From: Rubrobacter xylanophilus
Lineage (GTDB): Bacteria > Actinomycetota > Rubrobacteria > Rubrobacterales > Rubrobacteraceae
Assembly: GCF_007164525.1 (NCBI RefSeq)
Contig: NZ_AP019791.1
Location: 496,001 to 560,000 of the forward strand
Length of the DNA: 64,000 bases
Direction: 5' to 3'
Shown here: positions 17,384 to 47,446 of the stretch, in pieces
Numbering within the stretch: position 1 is the stretch's first letter
Layout: each line of letters begins with the position of its first letter
Position numbers and translations under genes: made by a program
Notes under the pieces: generated by a model
What the model saw: the letters and a program-made list of their open reading frames with translations, nothing else
What the model was told of the DNA's origin: nothing
Database searches by the model: none

Positions 17384-17427
17384 GAGCTACCGCAGCGGCG
17401 GCGCCGAACGCGGCTAAGATGTGCCGC

Positions 17428-17466
17428 ATGGCGTCGCATCCGAGGAGAACCCCGGGCGGAAGATGA
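17428..17466 (+). CDS. 12-codon upstream ORF overlapping the MMPL start
   Basis: ATG 17428 opens a 12-residue frame (MASHPRRTPGGR) whose TGA (17464-17466) overlaps the ATG of the MMPL gene as ATGA. TAAGAT at 17415-17420 puts the predicted transcription start at about 17427, making the mini-ORF leaderless. It is one of three such arrangements in this window, with 30305 and 46422. Confidence 0.4.
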   Translation: MASHPRRTPGGR

Positions 17467-19907
17467 GGATTTTCCACCGCCTGGGGAGCTTCGATTACCG
17501 CTGGCGGTGGCCGATACTCGCCCTGTGGGCGCTGCTGATCTCCGCCGGGGCCTTCTTCGCGCCGCGCATCGGGAGCGAGCTGGAGGGGGGAGGCTTCGAC
17601 GGCGCGGGGACCGAGGCCGAGCGGGTTCAGGACCTCATGGTGGAGGAGTTCGGAGCCTCACCAGCGACCCTCACCATCGTCTTCGACGGCGAAGGGCTGG
17701 ACGCCCGGAGCGAGGAGTTCCGGCGGGCCGAGCAGGCGGCGCTGGAGCCGCTGCGCGAGATGGAGGAGGTCCGGTACGTCTCCACCTACGCCACCACCAG
17801 AGATCCGCGCTTCATCTCCGAGGACGGGGAGGAGACGTACGCGGTGGTGGCCTTCGACGTCTCCATCGACAAAACCCAGGATCTGGTCGACGAGGTGCGG
17901 CGGAAGGTCCGCTCCGACCGGCTCGAGACCTACGTGACCGGGGCTCCGGCGGTCTACCAGGACATCCAGACCGCCAGCAACGAGGACATCCGGAAGGCCG
18001 AAAAGTACGCCTTCCCGCTGGCGGTGCTCATCCTGATCTTCGCCTTCGGCACGGTGGTCGCCGCCGGGGTGCCGGTGCTCATCGGGGGGGCGAGCGTGCT
18101 CTCGACCTTCGCGGTGCTCTACTTCGTGGCCGGCTCCTACGACATGTCCATCTTCGTGCTCACGATCTCCACGATGCTGGGGCTGGGGCTGGGGATAGAC
18201 TACGCCCTCTTCGCGGTGAGCCGTTTCCGGGAGGAGCTCGAGGACTACCCGGTGGAGGAGGCGGTCGCGCGTACGGTGGCCACGGCGGGACGTTCGATCT
18301 TCTTCTCCGGGATGGCGGTCCTGATCGGGCTCTCCGGGCTGTTGTTCTTCCCGTTCATGTTCATGCGTTCCATCGGGCTGGCCGGGGTGATGGTGGTGTT
18401 CGTCTCGGTTCTGGCGGCCCTGACGCTGCTGCCGGCGTTCGTGGGCGTGCTGGGCCACCGGGTGAACGCCCTCTCGATCCGGCGGCACAGAGGGGCGCCG
18501 GGAACCCGCTTCTGGAGCCGGAGCGCGGAGCTCGTGATGCGCCGGCCGGTCGTCGTGATCCTGGGCGTGGGCGTCTTGCTGGGGACACTGCTCTACCCGG
18601 CGCTGCATATGGACCTGGCGGTCCCGGAGGCGAGCGTCCTGCCCAAGAAGTACGAGTCGCGCGCCGGAGACGACATCCTGAGGCGGCAGTTCGACTACCA
18701 GGCCCTGAACCCCATGCAGGTGGTGGCGCAGGTGCCCCACGACCCGCTGAGCGCGGAGGGCCTGGCCGACGTGAAGGAGCTCGGGGAGCGGCTTGAGGCG
18801 ACGGGCGAGGTGAGGGAGCTCACGAGCATCTACACCGTCGGGGAGCGGGCGGCGCAGCGTTACGCCCGGCAGGTTTCGGAAGCCCGGGAGAGCGCCCGGG
18901 AGCGGGCGGACCGGCAGGTTGAGCGGGTGGTGGACGCCCGGCTCTCAGAACTCCGGTCGCAACTCGGGTTCGTCCCGGCGGGCGCGGAGGAGAGGATCCG
19001 GGAGGAGGCCCAAAGAAGGGCGCAGGCGGAGCTCGAGCGCCGGCTGCCCGACCTGCCCGAGGGGGTCTCCGCCGAGCGGGTCACCCCGGAGGGGGTTGCG
19101 AACTTCCTCGAGCTCCCCGCCGCCCGCGACTCGGAGCGGCTCCGGGAGGCGATCGACTCGTTCGTCGCGGGTGACCGGGCGCTCATCCAGGTGGTGGGCA
19201 GGGACGACCCGTACTCCGAGGAGGCCTACGCGGCGGTCGAGGAGCTGCGCTCGGTCGAGCCCCCGCAAGGGACGAGCTTCCTGGTGGGCGGGCTCTCCGC
19301 CGGACAGCGGGACTTCATAGCGAGCCTCTACGGCAAGGCCCCCTACGTCGTGGGGTTCGTACTCGGGGTGACCTATCTGATCCTGCTCTTCACCTTCCGC
19401 TCGGTGTTCATCCCGCTCAAGGCGGTGATCGTGAACATCCTGAGCCTGACGGCGAGCTTCGGCGCTATGGTCTTCGTCTTTCAGGACGGACACCTCTCGG
19501 GTCTGCTCAACTTCACCCCTCTGGGCTTCGTGGACGCCACGCTGCCCATCCTGATGTTCTGCACCATCTTCGGGGTCTCGATGGACTACGAGGTGTTTCT
19601 GCTGTCCAGGATCCGGGAGGCCTACGAGAACGGCGACTCCAACGCCGCGAGCGTGGCCAAGGGCCTCACCTCGACGGCCGGGATCATCACCTCGGCGGCT
19701 GCGATCATCATCGCGGTCACCGGGGCCTTCGCCTTCACCGGGATCGTGCTGATCAAAGCCGTCGGCCTCGGCCTCGCCGTCGCCGTCTTCGTGGACGCCA
19801 CGATCATCCGGGTGCTGCTGGTGCCGGCAACCATGCGTATCCTCGGCGACTGGAACTGGTGGCCCGGCGGCCGTAGGACCACCTTCCATCCCGGCGGCAA
19901 GGACTGA
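17463..19907 (+). CDS. MMPL/RND-family membrane transporter
   Basis: 814 aa with two homologous halves of about six helices. Each half carries the proton-relay signature: GLGIDYALFAVSRFREE in the first and FGVSMDYEVFLLSRIREA in the second. The first external loop lies between helices 1 and 2. The second loop contains a long Arg/Glu-rich coiled segment (about residues 465-525). MMPL proteins export lipids or hydrophobic compounds across the cytoplasmic membrane using the proton gradient. ATG 17463 fits the usual N-terminus (MRIFHRLGSFDYRWRWPI). A Fur-type regulator gene and its operator follow immediately. Confidence 0.88.
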   Translation: MRIFHRLGSFDYRWRWPILALWALLISAGAFFAPRIGSELEGGGFDGAGTEAERVQDLMVEEFGASPATLTIVFDGEGLDARSEEFRRAEQAALEPLREMEEVRYVSTYATTRDPRFISEDGEETYAVVAFDVSIDKTQDLVDEVRRKVRSDRLETYVTGAPAVYQDIQTASNEDIRKAEKYAFPLAVLILIFAFGTVVAAGVPVLIGGASVLSTFAVLYFVAGSYDMSIFVLTISTMLGLGLGIDYALFAVSRFREELEDYPVEEAVARTVATAGRSIFFSGMAVLIGLSGLLFFPFMFMRSIGLAGVMVVFVSVLAALTLLPAFVGVLGHRVNALSIRRHRGAPGTRFWSRSAELVMRRPVVVILGVGVLLGTLLYPALHMDLAVPEASVLPKKYESRAGDDILRRQFDYQALNPMQVVAQVPHDPLSAEGLADVKELGERLEATGEVRELTSIYTVGERAAQRYARQVSEARESARERADRQVERVVDARLSELRSQLGFVPAGAEERIREEAQRRAQAELERRLPDLPEGVSAERVTPEGVANFLELPAARDSERLREAIDSFVAGDRALIQVVGRDDPYSEEAYAAVEELRSVEPPQGTSFLVGGLSAGQRDFIASLYGKAPYVVGFVLGVTYLILLFTFRSVFIPLKAVIVNILSLTASFGAMVFVFQDGHLSGLLNFTPLGFVDATLPILMFCTIFGVSMDYEVFLLSRIREAYENGDSNAASVAKGLTSTAGIITSAAAIIIAVTGAFAFTGIVLIKAVGLGLAVAVFVDATIIRVLLVPATMRILGDWNWWPGGRRTTFHPGGKD

Positions 19908-26751: not shown

Positions 26752-26780
26752 TTGTGCGGTCTTCGATCGTGCCCTATACT
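26752..26780 (+). promoter_or_regulatory. Promoter of the epimerase gene
   Basis: TTGTGC (26752-26757), a 17-nt spacer and TATACT (26775-26780) place transcription start near 26787, about 35 nt before the TTG start with GGGGAGG at 26811-26817. Array A ends about 12 nt upstream of the -35. Confidence 0.6.
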
Positions 26781-26821
26781 CGGCATGTCGTGTTCTCATT
26801 CCAGGGGCGCGGGGAGGCGTG

Positions 26822-27805
26822 TTGAACTGGCTCATCACCGGCGGGTGCGGGTTCATCGGGACGGCGCTGGTGCGCTCGCTGGTGGGGGAGGGACACGCAG
26901 TGCGGGTGGTGGACGATCTCTCGGTGGGCACCCGCGAGGATCTCGGGGCGGTATGTGGTTTCCGGGAGGTTGCTCCGGAGAGGGCGGGCCCCATGCAGGG
27001 AGAGGGCGTGGAGCTCGTCGTCGGCGACATCCTCGACGAGGGCCTGGCCCGGCGGGTCTGCTCCGGGGCTGAGGTGGTCGTCCATCTTGCGGCCAGCACC
27101 GGCGTAGCTCCCTCGGTGGAGGATCCCCGCCGGGACTGCGCGACCAACGTCATCGGGACGCTCAACTATCTCGAGGCCGCCCGCGGGGCCGGGGTGCGGC
27201 GCTTCGTCTTCGCCTCCAGCGGGGCTGCCGCGGGGGAGGTGGACCCCCCGATCCACGAGGAGGTCTGTCCGCGGCCGGTCTCGCCCTACGGGGCCGGGAA
27301 GCTCGCCGGGGAGGCCTACTGCTCGGCCTACCACCGGACCTTCGGGCTGGAGACGGTGGCCCTGCGGTTCGGCAACGTCTACGGCCCCGGCTCGGGACAC
27401 AAGAACAGCGTGGTGGCGAAGTTCATACGCCGGGCGTCACGCGGGGAGCCGCTGGAGATCTACGGCGACGGTACCCAGACCCGCGACTTCATCTACATCG
27501 GGGATCTGGTGCGTGCCCTGCGACTGGCCGCCACGGCCCGCGGAGCTGGCGGGGAGGTCTTCCAGATCGCCACGGGGCACGAGACCTCGGTCGGAGAGCT
27601 GGTCGAGCTTCTTCTGCCGGCGCTGGCCGCCGCAGGGATAAAGGACGTGCGGGTGCGGCGGGCGGCCCCAAGACCGGGGGACGTGCTGCGCAACTACGCC
27701 GACACCTCCAAGGCTCGCCGTCTGCTCGGCTGGCGGGCGGAGGTGGGACTCGAGGAGGGGCTCCGGCGCACCGTGGAGTGGTTCGTGGAGCGGGGGGAGC
27801 TCTAG
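26822..27805 (+). CDS. NAD-dependent sugar-nucleotide epimerase/dehydratase (GalE-like)
   Basis: 327 aa extended short-chain dehydrogenase. The cofactor motif is ITGGCGFIGTALV (about residues 5-17). The active site has the serine region FASSGAAAGEV and the pair Tyr-x3-Lys in SPYGAGKLAGEAY. Likely a UDP-hexose 4-epimerase or a related dehydratase that supplies a sugar for the surrounding glycan genes; substrate not determinable. TTG 26822 follows GGGGAGG by 4 nt. The stop shares CTAG (27802-27805) with the convergent flippase gene. Confidence 0.88.
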   Translation: MNWLITGGCGFIGTALVRSLVGEGHAVRVVDDLSVGTREDLGAVCGFREVAPERAGPMQGEGVELVVGDILDEGLARRVCSGAEVVVHLAASTGVAPSVEDPRRDCATNVIGTLNYLEAARGAGVRRFVFASSGAAAGEVDPPIHEEVCPRPVSPYGAGKLAGEAYCSAYHRTFGLETVALRFGNVYGPGSGHKNSVVAKFIRRASRGEPLEIYGDGTQTRDFIYIGDLVRALRLAATARGAGGEVFQIATGHETSVGELVELLLPALAAAGIKDVRVRRAAPRPGDVLRNYADTSKARRLLGWRAEVGLEEGLRRTVEWFVERGEL

Positions 27806-30234: not shown

Positions 30235-30289
30235 GGTTAACCGGAGGTTAAATCTGGTTGAAGGCCCGGTTACACCCCGGTTCCCGCTG
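30235..30289 (+). repeat. Array B of 11-bp phased GGTT repeats
   Basis: Five units start at 30235 (GGTTAA), 30246 (GGTTAA), 30256 (GGTTGA), 30268 (GGTTAC) and 30279 (GGTTCC), an average period of exactly 11 bp. The array ends just before TAAGCT (30291-30296), a -10-like hexamer for the downstream gene, so a protein on it would occupy the -35 position, as PhoB-type activators do. It lies in the divergent region between the GT2 operon and the GT-C-like gene. Confidence 0.65.
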
Positions 30290-30304
30290 CTAAGCTAAGC
30301 TTCG

Positions 30305-30337
30305 ATGGCTGAGAGGGCGCTGCGGAGCGAAGCGTGA
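30305..30337 (+). CDS. 10-codon upstream ORF overlapping the membrane glycosyltransferase start
   Basis: ATG 30305 encodes MAERALRSEA and its TGA overlaps the GTG of the next gene as GTGA (30334-30337). It begins 8 nt after TAAGCT (30291-30296), hence probably leaderless. The arrangement matches those at 17428 and 46422. Confidence 0.4.
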   Translation: MAERALRSEA

Positions 30338-32367
30338 GCGAGATACTCGGGGATCTCGCGCCGGCGCTGCTCGTCGTTGTTTGCGTGGGGGTGGTCCCCG
30401 GGTGGTTCTGGGCCCGGCTGCTGGTCGGGGATGCGTGCCGGGTCGGCCTCGTGGCGCACTCGGTGGCCTTCTCGATCTCGCTGGTCCCCGCCCTGGCCCT
30501 CCTGCCGACCTACGCCGGGGTGCCCGTGACGTTGCCGGTGGCCCTGCTCTCTCCGGCCGCCGTCTTCCTCGGCGGGCTTCTGCTCCATCACCGTTTCGGC
30601 GCTTCGAAGGCTCCCGAGCCCCCGCTGGCCCCGCCGCCTCCGCGACCTTCGTCTCGGGCGCTGCTCCTGCTGGTTCTGGCTTTCGTGCCCGCGGCGGGGG
30701 CCGCGGCCGGTCTCCTTCCCTTATGGGCCGCGGCCCTCGCCTCTCTCGTGTTGGCCGGGGTTGCGGCCGCCGCAGGAGGAGATCCGGCGGGCCCGGAGCT
30801 CCCGCGGCGATGGGTGGAGGGGCTGCTCGCCGCCGTCCTGTTCCTCGTGCTGTTGCGAGGCTACCTGGGTCCTGCGCTGCACGACTGGCCGCACATTCGC
30901 GGCATAGACAAGTACACCCAGGCAATAATGGTGGACCTCATGCTCTCCCGGGGAAGCATCGAGTCCTACATGGTCTACCCGCCCGGCTTCCACACGCTGA
31001 TGGCCGTGATCTGCCGGCTCGGCGGGCTGGACCCGCTGGAGCTCTTCCCGGTGCTGGCGCCGGCCTTCCTGCTCCTGCCCGCCCTCGCTCTGTACGTGCT
31101 CGGACGCACGCTGTGGGGCGCAGGGTGTGGGCTCGCCGCCGCCCTTCTGGGCGGGCTGGTACTGGGCAGCCCGTACCTCTACCTCGCCGAGGCCCGCTAT
31201 CCTCAGCTGATCAGCGCGCAGTTCCTCACGGTGCTGGCGGTGGCGGCGCTCTTCCGGCTGCTGGCCGCTCCCTCCCCGCGCGCCGGGGTCTCCCTGGCGT
31301 TGCTGGGCTCCTCGGTGGTCCTCTACCACCACGTGGGGGCCTATTTCTTCGCGCTGGTGCTGGCTGCGGCCGCTCTCTTGCTCTTCCCGGCACTCCTTCT
31401 CCGGGGCGAGCGGCGCCGGGCCGGGGCGCTGTTCGTCTCGCTCGGGGCTCTCGGGGTACTCTCGATACTCTACGCCTGGGACACCTACGACCTGGCCGGT
31501 CTTCTCCTGGGGAACGGGGGCTCCGGGGCGACCGCCGAGGCGGTCAGCGGGGCGATCGGCACCCAGCAGCCCTTCCCGCTGTCGCACCTCGCCGAGCCCG
31601 TCTCTCACCCGGTGCTCTGGCTCGGGATCCTCGGGGTTCCCTTCGCCCTACTGGGCGCCCGCCGGGCCTCCCTCCCCGGCAGGCTCGCCCCATGGGTTCT
31701 GCTCGCCTGGTGTCTCGTCATGTTCGCCGGGAGCCGCACCGCACTCAGCGGGTTTCCCGAGAGGTTCGAGCGCGACCTGGGGGTCCCGCTCGTCCTGTTC
31801 GCCGCCTACGCCCTCGTGATGCTGCTGCGCCCCGCGCTCCGTCGCCGGGGAGAGTCCCGCCTCGCGGTGGCCGTCGCCGCGTTCGCCGGCCTCGTGGTGG
31901 TGGCGGGGGCCGTCCGGGGGCTTGCGGTGGCCGCGCTGCCCGCCCCGGAGGGGCCCTCGGACTCCGCCCGGCTAGCCACGACCCCCACCGTGGAGGCGGC
32001 GGGACGCTGGCTGAAGAAGCACAACACCGGCGGCAACATCATCGTCACCCCGTACATCGACCACGTACCCAGCCGGGCGCTGCTGGCCATGGGCGGATAC
32101 TCGGCGGTGCAAACCTTCAACCTCTCACGCATAGAGCGCGCCCGGGACCTTCCTCCCTCCGGCAAGAAGCCTCCGCTGGACGCCTTCGTGGTCATGAAGC
32201 GTCCTGGGAGCCCGGGGGCCCGGCGGGTGCTCCGGGAGTATGACGTCCGCTACGTGGTGCTCTCCAAAGATTACCCGGGGGTCGACTGGAAGAAGTTCGA
32301 GCGGCTGCCCGGACTCTACCGCAAGACCTTCGAGAACAGGGACGTGGTCATCTACGCCCCCGAATAG
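30334..32367 (+). CDS. Large GT-C-like integral membrane protein (copy 1)
   Basis: 677 aa with about 14 hydrophobic segments and a soluble C-terminal domain of about 110 residues. The extracytoplasmic acidic motif region GIDKYTQAIMVDLML and the VYPPGFHTLMAVICRLGG stretch suggest a GT-C-fold enzyme using polyprenyl-phosphate sugars, but no named family is certain. YAWDTYDL marks a conserved loop. The C-terminal part (KKHNTGGNIIVTPYIDH) is shared with the paralog at 35512-37614. A 66-nt segment (31002-31067) is identical in both genes. It is preceded by array B and a 10-codon upstream ORF. Confidence 0.75.
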   Translation: MSEILGDLAPALLVVVCVGVVPGWFWARLLVGDACRVGLVAHSVAFSISLVPALALLPTYAGVPVTLPVALLSPAAVFLGGLLLHHRFGASKAPEPPLAPPPPRPSSRALLLLVLAFVPAAGAAAGLLPLWAAALASLVLAGVAAAAGGDPAGPELPRRWVEGLLAAVLFLVLLRGYLGPALHDWPHIRGIDKYTQAIMVDLMLSRGSIESYMVYPPGFHTLMAVICRLGGLDPLELFPVLAPAFLLLPALALYVLGRTLWGAGCGLAAALLGGLVLGSPYLYLAEARYPQLISAQFLTVLAVAALFRLLAAPSPRAGVSLALLGSSVVLYHHVGAYFFALVLAAAALLLFPALLLRGERRRAGALFVSLGALGVLSILYAWDTYDLAGLLLGNGGSGATAEAVSGAIGTQQPFPLSHLAEPVSHPVLWLGILGVPFALLGARRASLPGRLAPWVLLAWCLVMFAGSRTALSGFPERFERDLGVPLVLFAAYALVMLLRPALRRRGESRLAVAVAAFAGLVVVAGAVRGLAVAALPAPEGPSDSARLATTPTVEAAGRWLKKHNTGGNIIVTPYIDHVPSRALLAMGGYSAVQTFNLSRIERARDLPPSGKKPPLDAFVVMKRPGSPGARRVLREYDVRYVVLSKDYPGVDWKKFERLPGLYRKTFENRDVVIYAPE

Positions 32368-32422: not shown

Positions 32423-33699
<1,277 letters not shown>

Positions 33700-35433: not shown

Positions 35434-35511
35434 AGGCATTGCGGCCCCGGCTAACATCCTCTCGCCGAGCCTTGCGTGCGTCGTCCGGCGGTTTTTGCGG
35501 AAAGGAGTTCT

Positions 35512-37614
35512 GTGCTGCGGGATCTCATCGTCGCCCTCTGCGTGGCGCTGCCCCTCGTCCTGCTTCCCGGCTACCCGTGGGCGCGGGTGCTCTGCGGGGA
35601 GGAGGACCGGGCGGCGCGGTTGATTTTCGGGTTGGCCCTCTCCCTGGCGACGGTCCCGGCGGCGGCGCTCGCCGCTGCCCGCCTCTCGGGTACGGGCGTG
35701 ACCGCCGCCGCTGCCCTCCTGGGGAGCGGGGCGGTCTTCCTCTCCGGCGTCGCCGTCTCTCTGGTCTTCGGGCCGGCCCGTCCGGCGGACAAGCCCCTGC
35801 TCGCGCTGCCGTCCGCTCCTCTGGGGCCGGCCGCCCTGCTGCCGCTCGGGGGGGCGCTGCTGGTCGGGATCGGGGTCGCTTCCGGGGCCGTTCCCGGGGG
35901 ATGGTGGCCGTCGGTCGCCGCGGCGCTGCTCGCCGGAGCGGCGGGCGCGCTGGGGCTCGCCCGGCCGGGAGGGGGCGCGGGGTTTCCGGTGCCTCCGAGA
36001 GCCTCCGCTCTCCGGGCGTTTGCGCTTCCCGCTTCCCTGCTGCTGGCGCTGCTCTGGGGGTACTCGGGACCCGTGCTGCACGACTGGCCCTTCATCCGGG
36101 GGGTGGACCACTACTCGCACACCGTAATGGCCAACCTCATGATGGAGCGCGCAGAGATCTACCCCTACCTCATCTACCCGCCAGGCTTCCACACGCTGAC
36201 GGCCGTGATCTGCCGGCTCGGCGGGCTGGACCCGCTGGAGCTCTTCCCGGTGCTGGCGCCGGCCTTTTTGCTCCTGCCCGCGCTTGCGCTCTACGTTCTC
36301 GGGCGCACCCTGTGGGGGGGAGGGCTCGGGGAGCTCGCCGCCGCCTCCCTGGTATTGCTCGGGGGGACCTACTACTACTTCCAGGACGCCATGTATCCCA
36401 ACATGGTCACCGCGCAGTTCCTCCTGCCGATGACGTTGGCGGCCCTTCTCCGGCTGTACGCCGCCCCCGGCCCCCGCACGTCCCTGCTGGTGGCCGTGAT
36501 TGGCTCCTCGGTGGTGCTCTACCACCAGGTTTCCGCAATGTACCTGGGGCTTCTGCTGGCGCTGCTCTGCGTGTGGGGGCTGCCGTACCTCCTGCTCCGC
36601 GAGCGGGAGGTGGGGGGATGGATGCTGCTCTCGCTCGCGCTCCTCGGTTCTCTCTCCGTCCTGTACGCCTGGGACACCTACGATCTTCCTGGGCTCGTCC
36701 GGGGGCTTGTCTCCGGCTCCCCGGGCGGTGCGGCGACCGGAGAGGCCGTCGGGATGGCGCTCGGCACCCAGCCGCCCTACAGCTTCTCCTTCCTCTCCGG
36801 CACCATGGTCTCCCTGCCGGTGCTCTGCCTCGGTCTCTTCGGGCTGGTGCTCGCGGCGGGCGGGACGGTGCGTCGGGCGGGGAGGCTGTCGTATCTCACG
36901 CTGGTGCTCTGGGCGTTCGTGCTCTTCGTGGGCAGCCGGACCGCGATGAGCGGGTTCCCGCAGCGGTTCGGGCGAGATCTCGGGATTCCGCTCGCCCTCT
37001 TCGCCGCCCTGGGCCTCGTGGTGGTGCTCCGTTCGCTGGTTCCCCGCAGACCCCTTCTCGTCTTCGCAACCTCGGTGGTCGCGCTGCTCGCCGTGGGGCT
37101 GATCGGGGTGCGGGGCGCGCAGAGCCTGCAGTACGCCGCGGGGCCCAGCGTCCAGCTCACAATGACGCCCGGCATAGCGGCCGCCGGGGAGTGGCTGGAG
37201 CGGCACAATACCGGGGGGAACATAATCGTCGGCCCGCATGCCAACCAGGTGCCGAGCCGGATGATGCTCGCGATGGGCGACTATTCAGCGTTGCAGTCTT
37301 TCACCAGAAAACAGATCCTCCGCCCCCGAGACCTGCCGCCCAGGGGGCCGCGCCCGCTCGTCGACGTGCTCCGGGTGGTCGAGAACCCGGCGGGCGGGGA
37401 GGTGCCGGAGATCTTGCGCCGTTACGACGTCCGCTACATCGTCCTCTACAAAAACATGCCCGACAGACCCACCCGGGACTACTGGCGGGCCTTCGCCGAC
37501 CACCCCGGCCTCTACCGCGTCCGCTTCGAGAACCGCGACGTCCTGATCGTCGAGCCCCGCTTCGAGAATGGCTCGTCGTCCGACGCCCCCGAACGCCCGG
37601 CCGATCTGCGGTAG
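35512..37614 (+). CDS. Large GT-C-like integral membrane protein (copy 2)
   Basis: 700 aa from GTG 35512, 4 nt after AAAGGAG. It is a paralog of the 30334 gene with the same plan: about 14 helices, a GVDHYSHTVMANLMM acidic motif, the PPGFHTLTAVICRLGG stretch, YAWDTYDL and a soluble end (ERHNTGGNIIVGPHANQ) closing with EVPEILRRYDVRYIVLY. Probably a GT-C enzyme for the same surface glycan, acting at a different sugar or acceptor. The near-identity of 36201-36266 with the first copy suggests gene conversion. Confidence 0.75.
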   Translation: MLRDLIVALCVALPLVLLPGYPWARVLCGEEDRAARLIFGLALSLATVPAAALAAARLSGTGVTAAAALLGSGAVFLSGVAVSLVFGPARPADKPLLALPSAPLGPAALLPLGGALLVGIGVASGAVPGGWWPSVAAALLAGAAGALGLARPGGGAGFPVPPRASALRAFALPASLLLALLWGYSGPVLHDWPFIRGVDHYSHTVMANLMMERAEIYPYLIYPPGFHTLTAVICRLGGLDPLELFPVLAPAFLLLPALALYVLGRTLWGGGLGELAAASLVLLGGTYYYFQDAMYPNMVTAQFLLPMTLAALLRLYAAPGPRTSLLVAVIGSSVVLYHQVSAMYLGLLLALLCVWGLPYLLLREREVGGWMLLSLALLGSLSVLYAWDTYDLPGLVRGLVSGSPGGAATGEAVGMALGTQPPYSFSFLSGTMVSLPVLCLGLFGLVLAAGGTVRRAGRLSYLTLVLWAFVLFVGSRTAMSGFPQRFGRDLGIPLALFAALGLVVVLRSLVPRRPLLVFATSVVALLAVGLIGVRGAQSLQYAAGPSVQLTMTPGIAAAGEWLERHNTGGNIIVGPHANQVPSRMMLAMGDYSALQSFTRKQILRPRDLPPRGPRPLVDVLRVVENPAGGEVPEILRRYDVRYIVLYKNMPDRPTRDYWRAFADHPGLYRVRFENRDVLIVEPRFENGSSSDAPERPADLR

Positions 37615-46346: not shown

Positions 46347-46421
46347 CGCCTCCGTCTCCGCCGTCTCTTTGCTGCCGCTTCGAAGGTATTCTATCAGGGC
46401 TGAGGATGTATACTGCCTCCC

Positions 46422-46448
46422 ATGCGAGAGAGCGCGGGGGACAGGTGA
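46422..46448 (+). CDS. 8-codon upstream ORF overlapping the PrsW start
   Basis: ATG 46422 encodes MRESAGDR; its TGA overlaps the main GTG as GTGA (46445-46448). TATACT (46409-46414) predicts transcription start at about 46421, so the mini-ORF is leaderless. Same arrangement as at 17428 and 30305. Confidence 0.4.
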   Translation: MRESAGDR

Positions 46449-47446
46449 GCGGGACGCTCGTCGGGATAGGGGTCCTGCAGACCCTCGTCTACCTGGCTTT
46501 CATCCGGTTCATAGATCTCTACGAGCGGGAGCCGCTCAGGTACGTCGTTCCGGTCTTTCTCTGGGGCTTCACCGTGGCCGTCGGGGTCTCGCTGTTCTTC
46601 AACACGCTGTTTCAGGTGGCGATCAGCCAGATCTCCACGATGCAGGTCGCGGGGTTTTTGACGGCGGTGGTCGCCGCCCCGGTGGTGGAGGAGTGCTCCA
46701 AGGGGCTGGCCCTGTTTCTGGTGTTCCTGGTCTCTTATGCGGCCTCCCGGCGTCGGGGTGAGGTGGAGTTCTCCGGGGTGATGGACGGGATCGTCTACGG
46801 TTCGGCGGTCGGCTTCGGCTTCTCGCTGGCCGAGGATCTACTCTACTACGCCCAGTTCGGCCCCGAGACCTACGCGGTGCGCAGGATCTTCGGCGGGTTC
46901 GCCCACGCGGCGTTCACCTCCATGACGGGCATCGGGTTCGGGCTCGTCCCCTGGGTGAGGAGCCCGTTGCTCAGACTGATGCCCCCGGTGTTCGGGCTCG
47001 GAATCGCGATCGGTCTGCACGCGGCGTTCAACCTGACCGCCAGCCTCTTCGGTCCGCTGGCCTACGGGGTGCTGTTTCTGGTGCTTCTGCTGTACGTGGC
47101 GATCATAGCCGGATGGCTCGCCTTCGAGCGGCGGGCCATCCGCAACGAGCTGCGAGAGGAGGTGGCGGCCGGGCTCGTGAGTCCCGAGGACTACGCGGTT
47201 CTGCCGACCTATCTGCGGCGCACGGGGCGCTACCTGAGGCTCGCGCTCACCGGGCGCTGGGGAGAGTGGTTCCGCGAGCGGCGGCTGCACGCCGCCGCGG
47301 TGGACCTCGCGCTGGCCAAGCGGGTCTCCCGCTCGGGGATGCGGGGCGAGGACGAGCGGGTCGGTCGCCTGCGGCGCAAGCTTCTGGAACTGCAGCGGCT
47401 ATCCTCCGCCGGTTCCCGCGGGGCGCGATGGACGCCACCTGCGTGA
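46445..47446 (+). CDS. PrsW-family intramembrane metalloprotease
   Basis: 333 aa with about eight helices. The PrsW motifs are present: AAPVVEECSKGLALF (EE-x3-K/G), GVMDGIVYGSAVGFGFSLAEDLLYY (E-x4-Y) and the histidines in GGFAHAAFTSMTG and IGLHAAFNL. PrsW performs site-1 cleavage of an anti-sigma factor in Bacillus. An anti-sigma target is not encoded nearby. The hydrophilic C-terminal tail of about 90 residues is longer than usual. Start GTG 46445 is coupled to an 8-codon ORF; ATG 46406 lies upstream of the predicted transcription start. Confidence 0.85.
   Translation: MSGTLVGIGVLQTLVYLAFIRFIDLYEREPLRYVVPVFLWGFTVAVGVSLFFNTLFQVAISQISTMQVAGFLTAVVAAPVVEECSKGLALFLVFLVSYAASRRRGEVEFSGVMDGIVYGSAVGFGFSLAEDLLYYAQFGPETYAVRRIFGGFAHAAFTSMTGIGFGLVPWVRSPLLRLMPPVFGLGIAIGLHAAFNLTASLFGPLAYGVLFLVLLLYVAIIAGWLAFERRAIRNELREEVAAGLVSPEDYAVLPTYLRRTGRYLRLALTGRWGEWFRERRLHAAAVDLALAKRVSRSGMRGEDERVGRLRRKLLELQRLSSAGSRGARWTPPA

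Follow-up and report, generated by a model that had tools for sequence, protein, structure and literature searches.

The question raised by this locus of Rubrobacter xylanophilus is whether a ten-codon reading frame immediately upstream of a membrane protein gene serves to load ribosomes without a leader and to hand them on to the gene itself. The frame lies within the window, by which we mean the whole stretch of 64,000 nucleotides that was analysed (positions 496001-560000 of a 3.02 Mb genome). The original prediction that an ATG opens a ten-codon frame ending on the GTG start of the main gene was confirmed in its coordinates, translation and overlap. ATG 30305 opens a mini-ORF (30305..30337, forward strand) that would encode MAERALRSEA, and its stop codon TGA (30335-30337) overlaps the start codon GTG (30334-30336) in the tetranucleotide GTGA (30334..30337). 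Upstream lies an extended −10 element, TGC-TAAGCT (30288..30296, forward strand), with TAAGCT at 30291-30296 and the TG at 30288-30289. Because the gap between this element and the ATG is 8 nt, the predicted transcription start is the ATG itself or 1-2 nt before it, and in this form, as a prediction from spacing, the proposed coincidence of start point and ATG holds. When the locus was scanned with a consensus sigma-70 model, no −35/−10 pair was found. Inside the mini-ORF a Shine-Dalgarno-like GGAG (30324..30327) is situated 6 nt before GTG 30334, with a calculated duplex energy at this start of −5.8 kcal/mol. In addition, an inverted repeat, TTAACC-GGA-GGTTAA (30237..30251), precedes the predicted start by about 60 bp. 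At the matching position the nearest relative, a sister species (G001), carries TTAACCGGGGGTTAA inside a well-conserved block, and the dyad is a possible operator of the downstream gene.

The main gene (30334..32367, forward strand) encodes a polytopic membrane protein of 677 amino acids, for which no family match above threshold was obtained in Pfam or NCBIfam. We modelled it with AlphaFold2 using 20 relatives as input (pLDDT 84, pTM 0.88), and Foldseek matched the model to the GT-C enzymes STT3, AglB, PglB and AftA, with E-values down to 2e-9 (STT3). As far as the fold goes, the earlier designation of the product as a membrane glycosyltransferase is thus fair, the predicted structure being that of a GT-C glycosyltransferase fold. 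Proteins with this fold (30334-32367 and 35512-37614 in the window) form a Rubrobacteraceae family, of which many genomes carry one copy or several; for the family, too, Pfam and NCBIfam gave no match above threshold. The second paralogue, which starts at GTG 35512, is preceded by a strong Shine-Dalgarno (SD) sequence, AGGAG; a promoter-adjacent mini-ORF is absent there (region 35440-35530). The gene between the two, on the reverse strand (32423-33676), likely encodes a UDP-sulfoquinovose synthase (NF041015, 517 bits, cut-off 575).

Conservation at the 30305 locus was mixed. Among the glycosyltransferase homologues, the distance from the −10 element to the RTG peaked at 6-9 nt in at least six genera, far above other spacings, and the predicted leaderless start is therefore conserved at genes of this type. 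The same or nearly the same TG-N-TAANCT element was seen upstream of seven homologues (L002, L011, L012, L022, L024, L028 and L030). The SD sequences of the glycosyltransferase homologues are strong (median duplex energy, −8.4 kcal/mol); since the gene at 30334 also has its own SD, GGAG at a spacing of 6 nt, re-initiation need not be the sole route of entry. The sister species keeps the promoter and the ATG, the latter 10 nt from the −10 element, but insertions of 2 nt flank the ATG on either side and change the frame. The GTG is gone there, and the main gene starts with TTG behind a GGAGG SD and is overlapped for 11 nt by the mini-ORF frame. An 11-nt overlap is common in the other homologues because the fourth codon of the gene, a conserved Asp codon, contains the TGA. 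Where those homologues start, our species has an ATA codon, and its own start lies 9 nt further upstream, within the GTGA; the NTGA overlap at the GT-C locus is unique to this species. The original prediction had proposed conservation of that overlap as a check, and this check failed at 30305. It had also named a lack of conservation of the mini-ORF among close relatives as grounds for refutation, and this was half the case, the promoter and ATG being kept and the overlap lost. As far as sequence comparison goes, 30305 is the weakest case, with its layout conserved only loosely; the conservation evidence is partial here and decisive for the two similar cases at 17428 and 46422.

Both of these cases, which had been pointed out together with 30305, were as described. 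The first consists of a −10 element TAAGAT (17415..17420; TAACAT, TACCAT or TACGAT in orthologues), a predicted leaderless mini-ORF of 12 codons that begins 7 nt after it (17428..17466), and an ATGA overlap with the ATG 17463 start of an MMPL family transporter gene (17463..19907; PF03176, E=7.6e-86). In the second, the −10 element is TATACT (46409..46414; TATACT or TATAAT in nearly all orthologues), the predicted leaderless mini-ORF has 8 codons and again begins 7 nt downstream (46422..46448), and a GTGA links it to GTG 46445 of a PrsW-family intramembrane protease gene (46445..47446; PF13367, E=2.9e-35). All of these features are on the forward strand. A fourth case was found at 26775..26825 (forward strand), where TATACT (26775-26780) is followed after nine nucleotides by GTG 26790 and a frame of 11 codons, joined by TTGA to the TTG 26822 start of an NAD-dependent epimerase gene (26822..27805, forward strand; PF01370, E=5.9e-60). 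The mini-ORF of this soluble protein is kept in the sister species as ATG...GTGA and is not conserved outside the genus.

We gathered 30 orthologues each of MMPL, PrsW, dnaX and a Zincin_2 protein gene from across the Rubrobacteraceae and read their 5' regions. The last two were chosen from a genome survey described below because they were coupled in our genome or in the sister species, and not by function; for Zincin_2, coupling in both genomes was already known at that point. A 4-nt overlap with an RTG 6-8 nt after the −10 element was present in 17 of the 30 MMPL orthologues (10 genera), in 18 of 30 for PrsW (9 genera) and in 27 of 30 for Zincin_2 (10 genera). In dnaX the RTG lay 6-7 nt after TATACT or TATAAT in all 30 orthologues; 14 of them had the 4-nt overlap, in 13 the stop codon was placed between −6 and +9 nt relative to the start (as TAGTG or TAGATG), and three (L158, L178, L183) were directly leaderless. 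The idea of a repeated design thus stands for the layout as such, which by geometry and frame is kept in 9-10 genera for MMPL and PrsW, and falls for the overlap at 30305. In 25 dnaX loci from other families of the phylum no coupled mini-ORF was found, so at dnaX it would seem to be confined to the Rubrobacteraceae. In a few of these loci (L257-L281), from several families, dnaX itself looks directly leaderless; there the start follows a −10 element, TAGGAT for instance, at a distance of 6-9 nt. Two further promoter motifs were noticed. TATTCTAYCA recurs a few bases upstream of GTATACT at PrsW in many genera (46380-46414 in the window; L062-L088); it did not match a standard −35 element and is perhaps a site for an alternative sigma factor or a regulator. 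In many MMPL orthologues (among L043-L060) the −10 element is preceded, at a distance of about 30-45 nt, by a TGTRATAGAA-like motif.

It was also claimed that the main genes at 30305, 17428 and 46422 all encode polytopic membrane proteins. By a crude count of hydrophobic segments this is true (14, 14 and 4, respectively). As a link between the design and such proteins it does not hold, since dnaX, the Zincin_2 protein and the sugar epimerase share the layout; the restriction to membrane proteins is ruled out by these three, and the polytopic nature of the first three is a coincidence of the window. We likewise rejected a general lack of SD sequences in the main genes. Only the dnaX starts lack one (median −2.6 kcal/mol, compared with −3.2 for random sequence and −6.3 for the genome), while the starts of PrsW, Zincin_2 and the glycosyltransferase have average to strong SDs.

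In the MMPL, PrsW, dnaX and Zincin_2 families the mini-ORFs with a 4-nt overlap varied from 8 to 24 codons (down to 6 in unverified matches of the survey), and the distance from RTG to main start fell in the NTGA frame for 23 of 36 distinct values, where one third would be expected (p=1.7e-4; this test counts lengths as independent and ignores kinship, so that its significance is somewhat overstated). The similarity of the peptides between genera, 0.21-0.24, equalled that of shuffled peptides, while the N-termini of the main proteins reached 0.41-0.82. In all four families, then, the linkage is kept and the peptide is not. In a few orthologues the mini-ORF is fused in frame to the main gene (MMPL, L052 and L053; PrsW, L067; Zincin_2, L205), and in one MMPL orthologue (L048) the main gene is directly leaderless. 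We find it difficult to account for this interchange of coupled, fused and directly leaderless states if the RTG is not where ribosomes enter. Judged by these comparisons, the conserved module upstream of MMPL, PrsW, dnaX and Zincin_2 in the Rubrobacteraceae is real and old.

The survey covered 864 kb of our genome (40 stretches of 20 kb and the window) and 400 kb of the sister species, 1.26 Mb in total. An initial gene caller, for which long ORFs had served as training set, mistook antisense ORFs for genes and gave no clear enrichment; that result was discarded, and genes were called with a codon model trained on ORFs having GC3>GC1>GC2. We measured the distance of each RTG from TANNNT and derived expected counts from the other spacings. 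Mini-ORFs coupled by a 4-nt overlap were found 6-8 nt from TANNNT 19 times against 8.7 expected (p=0.002), and those with a −10 box matching in at least four of six positions 16 times against 5.7 (p=0.0003). Main starts that are themselves directly leaderless were enriched at the same spacing (92 against 45, p=5e-10). No enrichment was seen in this survey for uncoupled mini-ORFs (20 against 17) or for deeply overlapping ones (10 against 8.8). The coupled class therefore exceeds chance, but modestly; since about half of the coupled matches in a single genome are chance, conservation must decide each case. A mini-ORF upstream of FtsE, which came from the same survey and served as a specificity control, is an example of such a chance match. 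It is coupled in our genome and in the sister species only, and elsewhere it was not conserved, with one further chance match (L225) at 5 nt from TANNNT. Extrapolating from the sample, we estimate that a few tens of genes in each genome use the layout.

In the main rival explanation at 30305, the ATG at the 5' end of an SD-led gene is incidental: the mRNA would have an ordinary leader of about 29 nt, the GTG would be reached through its own GGAG, and the ATG and GTGA would be there by chance. The position of GGAG 6 nt before the GTG with a duplex energy of −5.8 kcal/mol, the strong SDs of the homologues, the sister species without the same overlap and frame, and the share of coupled matches expected by chance in each genome all speak for it. 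It leaves unexplained why an RTG 6-9 nt from the −10 element recurs in the homologues of at least six genera and why the same layout has been selected at other genes of this genome, and we consider it a possible though somewhat doubtful account.

The other explanations give the peptide or its codons a role. If the mini-ORF encoded the N-terminus of the main protein and were joined to it by frameshifting or stop suppression, or were set apart from it by a sequencing error, the in-frame fusions in MMPL, PrsW and Zincin_2 orthologues would find an explanation; for M. tuberculosis, suppression of a stop codon within an AUGA overlap has been reported (PMC11260477). The fusions are a minority of the orthologues, however, the frame relation is the same over many independent assemblies and lengths, and the peptides are not conserved, which makes this reading quite unlikely. 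We think it still less probable that the mini-ORF is an attenuation leader sensing charged tRNA. Mycobacteria do have leaderless, cysteine-rich regulatory small ORFs (Canestrari et al. 2020, as cited in PMC9094748), but the peptide at 30305 contains no run of a single amino acid, and in the four families peptides are not conserved between genera. The conserved regulatory codons and the terminator between leader and gene that mark an attenuator were not found; there is no terminator-like hairpin inside the mini-ORF, and with its stop on the start codon there is no room for one. Least probable of all, to the point of being hardly credible, is a functional micropeptide. Small proteins from leaderless transcripts are found in mycobacteria (PMC4633059), yet between genera the peptides of all four gene families resemble each other no more than shuffled ones do.

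The reading we prefer is one of ribosome delivery. Transcription from TGC-TAAGCT would start on ATG 30305 or no more than 1-2 nt away from it. The 5'-terminal AUG would be bound, with no need for an SD, by an intact 70S ribosome, which would read the ten codons and terminate at the TGA at 30335, and re-initiation would take place at the overlapping GTG 30334, aided by the GGAG within the mini-ORF. The peptide would be irrelevant, and the role of the mini-ORF would be to bring ribosomes to the main gene. We infer the start point, the translation of the mini-ORF and its coupling by re-initiation from the sequence. It seems rather likely that the 30305 frame is a leaderless upstream ORF that delivers ribosomes in this way to the GT-C gene. 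For the class as a whole, leaderless ribosome delivery is highly probable; for the 30305 locus judged alone, the case is evenly balanced.

Leaderless small ORFs coupled by RTGA are already known from mycobacteria, where they are over-represented and conserved in architecture and not in peptide (Shell et al. 2015, PMC4633059). Members of that class have an RTG at the transcription start, 5-50 codons and a TGA overlapping the next RTG; the frames at 30305, 17428 and 46422 have 10, 12 and 8 codons and end in GTGA, ATGA and GTGA. Their RTG lies 6-8 nt after the −10 box, a spacing conserved among relatives, at a start site that is here predicted. Coupled linkage is over-represented in our genome too (19 against 8.7), while the RTGA linkage of 30305 is not kept in the nearest relative. 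The mycobacterial class was studied by mapping of transcription starts, plus ribosome profiling in M. smegmatis, whereas the Rubrobacteraceae case is read from sequence. In the latter, the linkage is conserved through many genera, stops may also abut the start (TAGATG) or share a single nucleotide with it (TAGTG), main genes often begin with TTG, and relatives of 30305 have a shifted overlap. Re-initiation at overlapping stop and start codons has been described by Huber et al. 2019 (PMC6728339) and, at an AUGA, in a B12-riboswitch study of M. tuberculosis in 2024 (uPPE2/PPE2, PMC11260477). The GTGA at 30334-30337 resembles these NUGA pairs, and dnaX here, like PPE2 there, is a downstream gene without an SD; in contrast to those pairs, our upstream frames comprise only a few codons, have a predicted leaderless start and are putatively coupled. 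Closest to the 30305 locus are the E. coli mRNAs with a 5'-terminal uAUG upstream of an SD-bearing gene, a class not defined by NTGA overlap, in which the effect on the downstream gene ranges from strong to none (Beck et al. 2016, PMC4965119). The idea of ribosome delivery is stated in a 2025 review (PMC12548453). In the literature that we searched, leaderless translation in Rubrobacter was not the subject of any paper. The present comparison widens the taxonomic range, shows how deep the conservation goes, and contributes both dnaX, as an example that lacks an SD, and the interchange of states.

Rubrobacteria branch deep within the Actinobacteria, so the trait is not peculiar to mycobacteria. 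Whether the linkage is selected had been judged from few comparisons. With four gene families and as many as 13 genera, we have a natural experiment in which lengths and peptides drift while the 5' spacing and the proximity of stop and start hold. Mini-ORFs this short escape annotation pipelines and lead to miscalled start codons. A genome-wide Cappable-seq map of transcription starts in R. radiotolerans, made for another purpose (PMC8325347), could test the leaderless starts directly. It is likely, on present evidence, that the promoter-adjacent mini-ORFs of the Rubrobacteraceae are a selected module for ribosome delivery without a peptide function, which would be the main point of entry for some SD-less genes including dnaX, and that coupled, fused and directly leaderless arrangements are three equivalent states exchanged in evolution while leaderless loading is kept.
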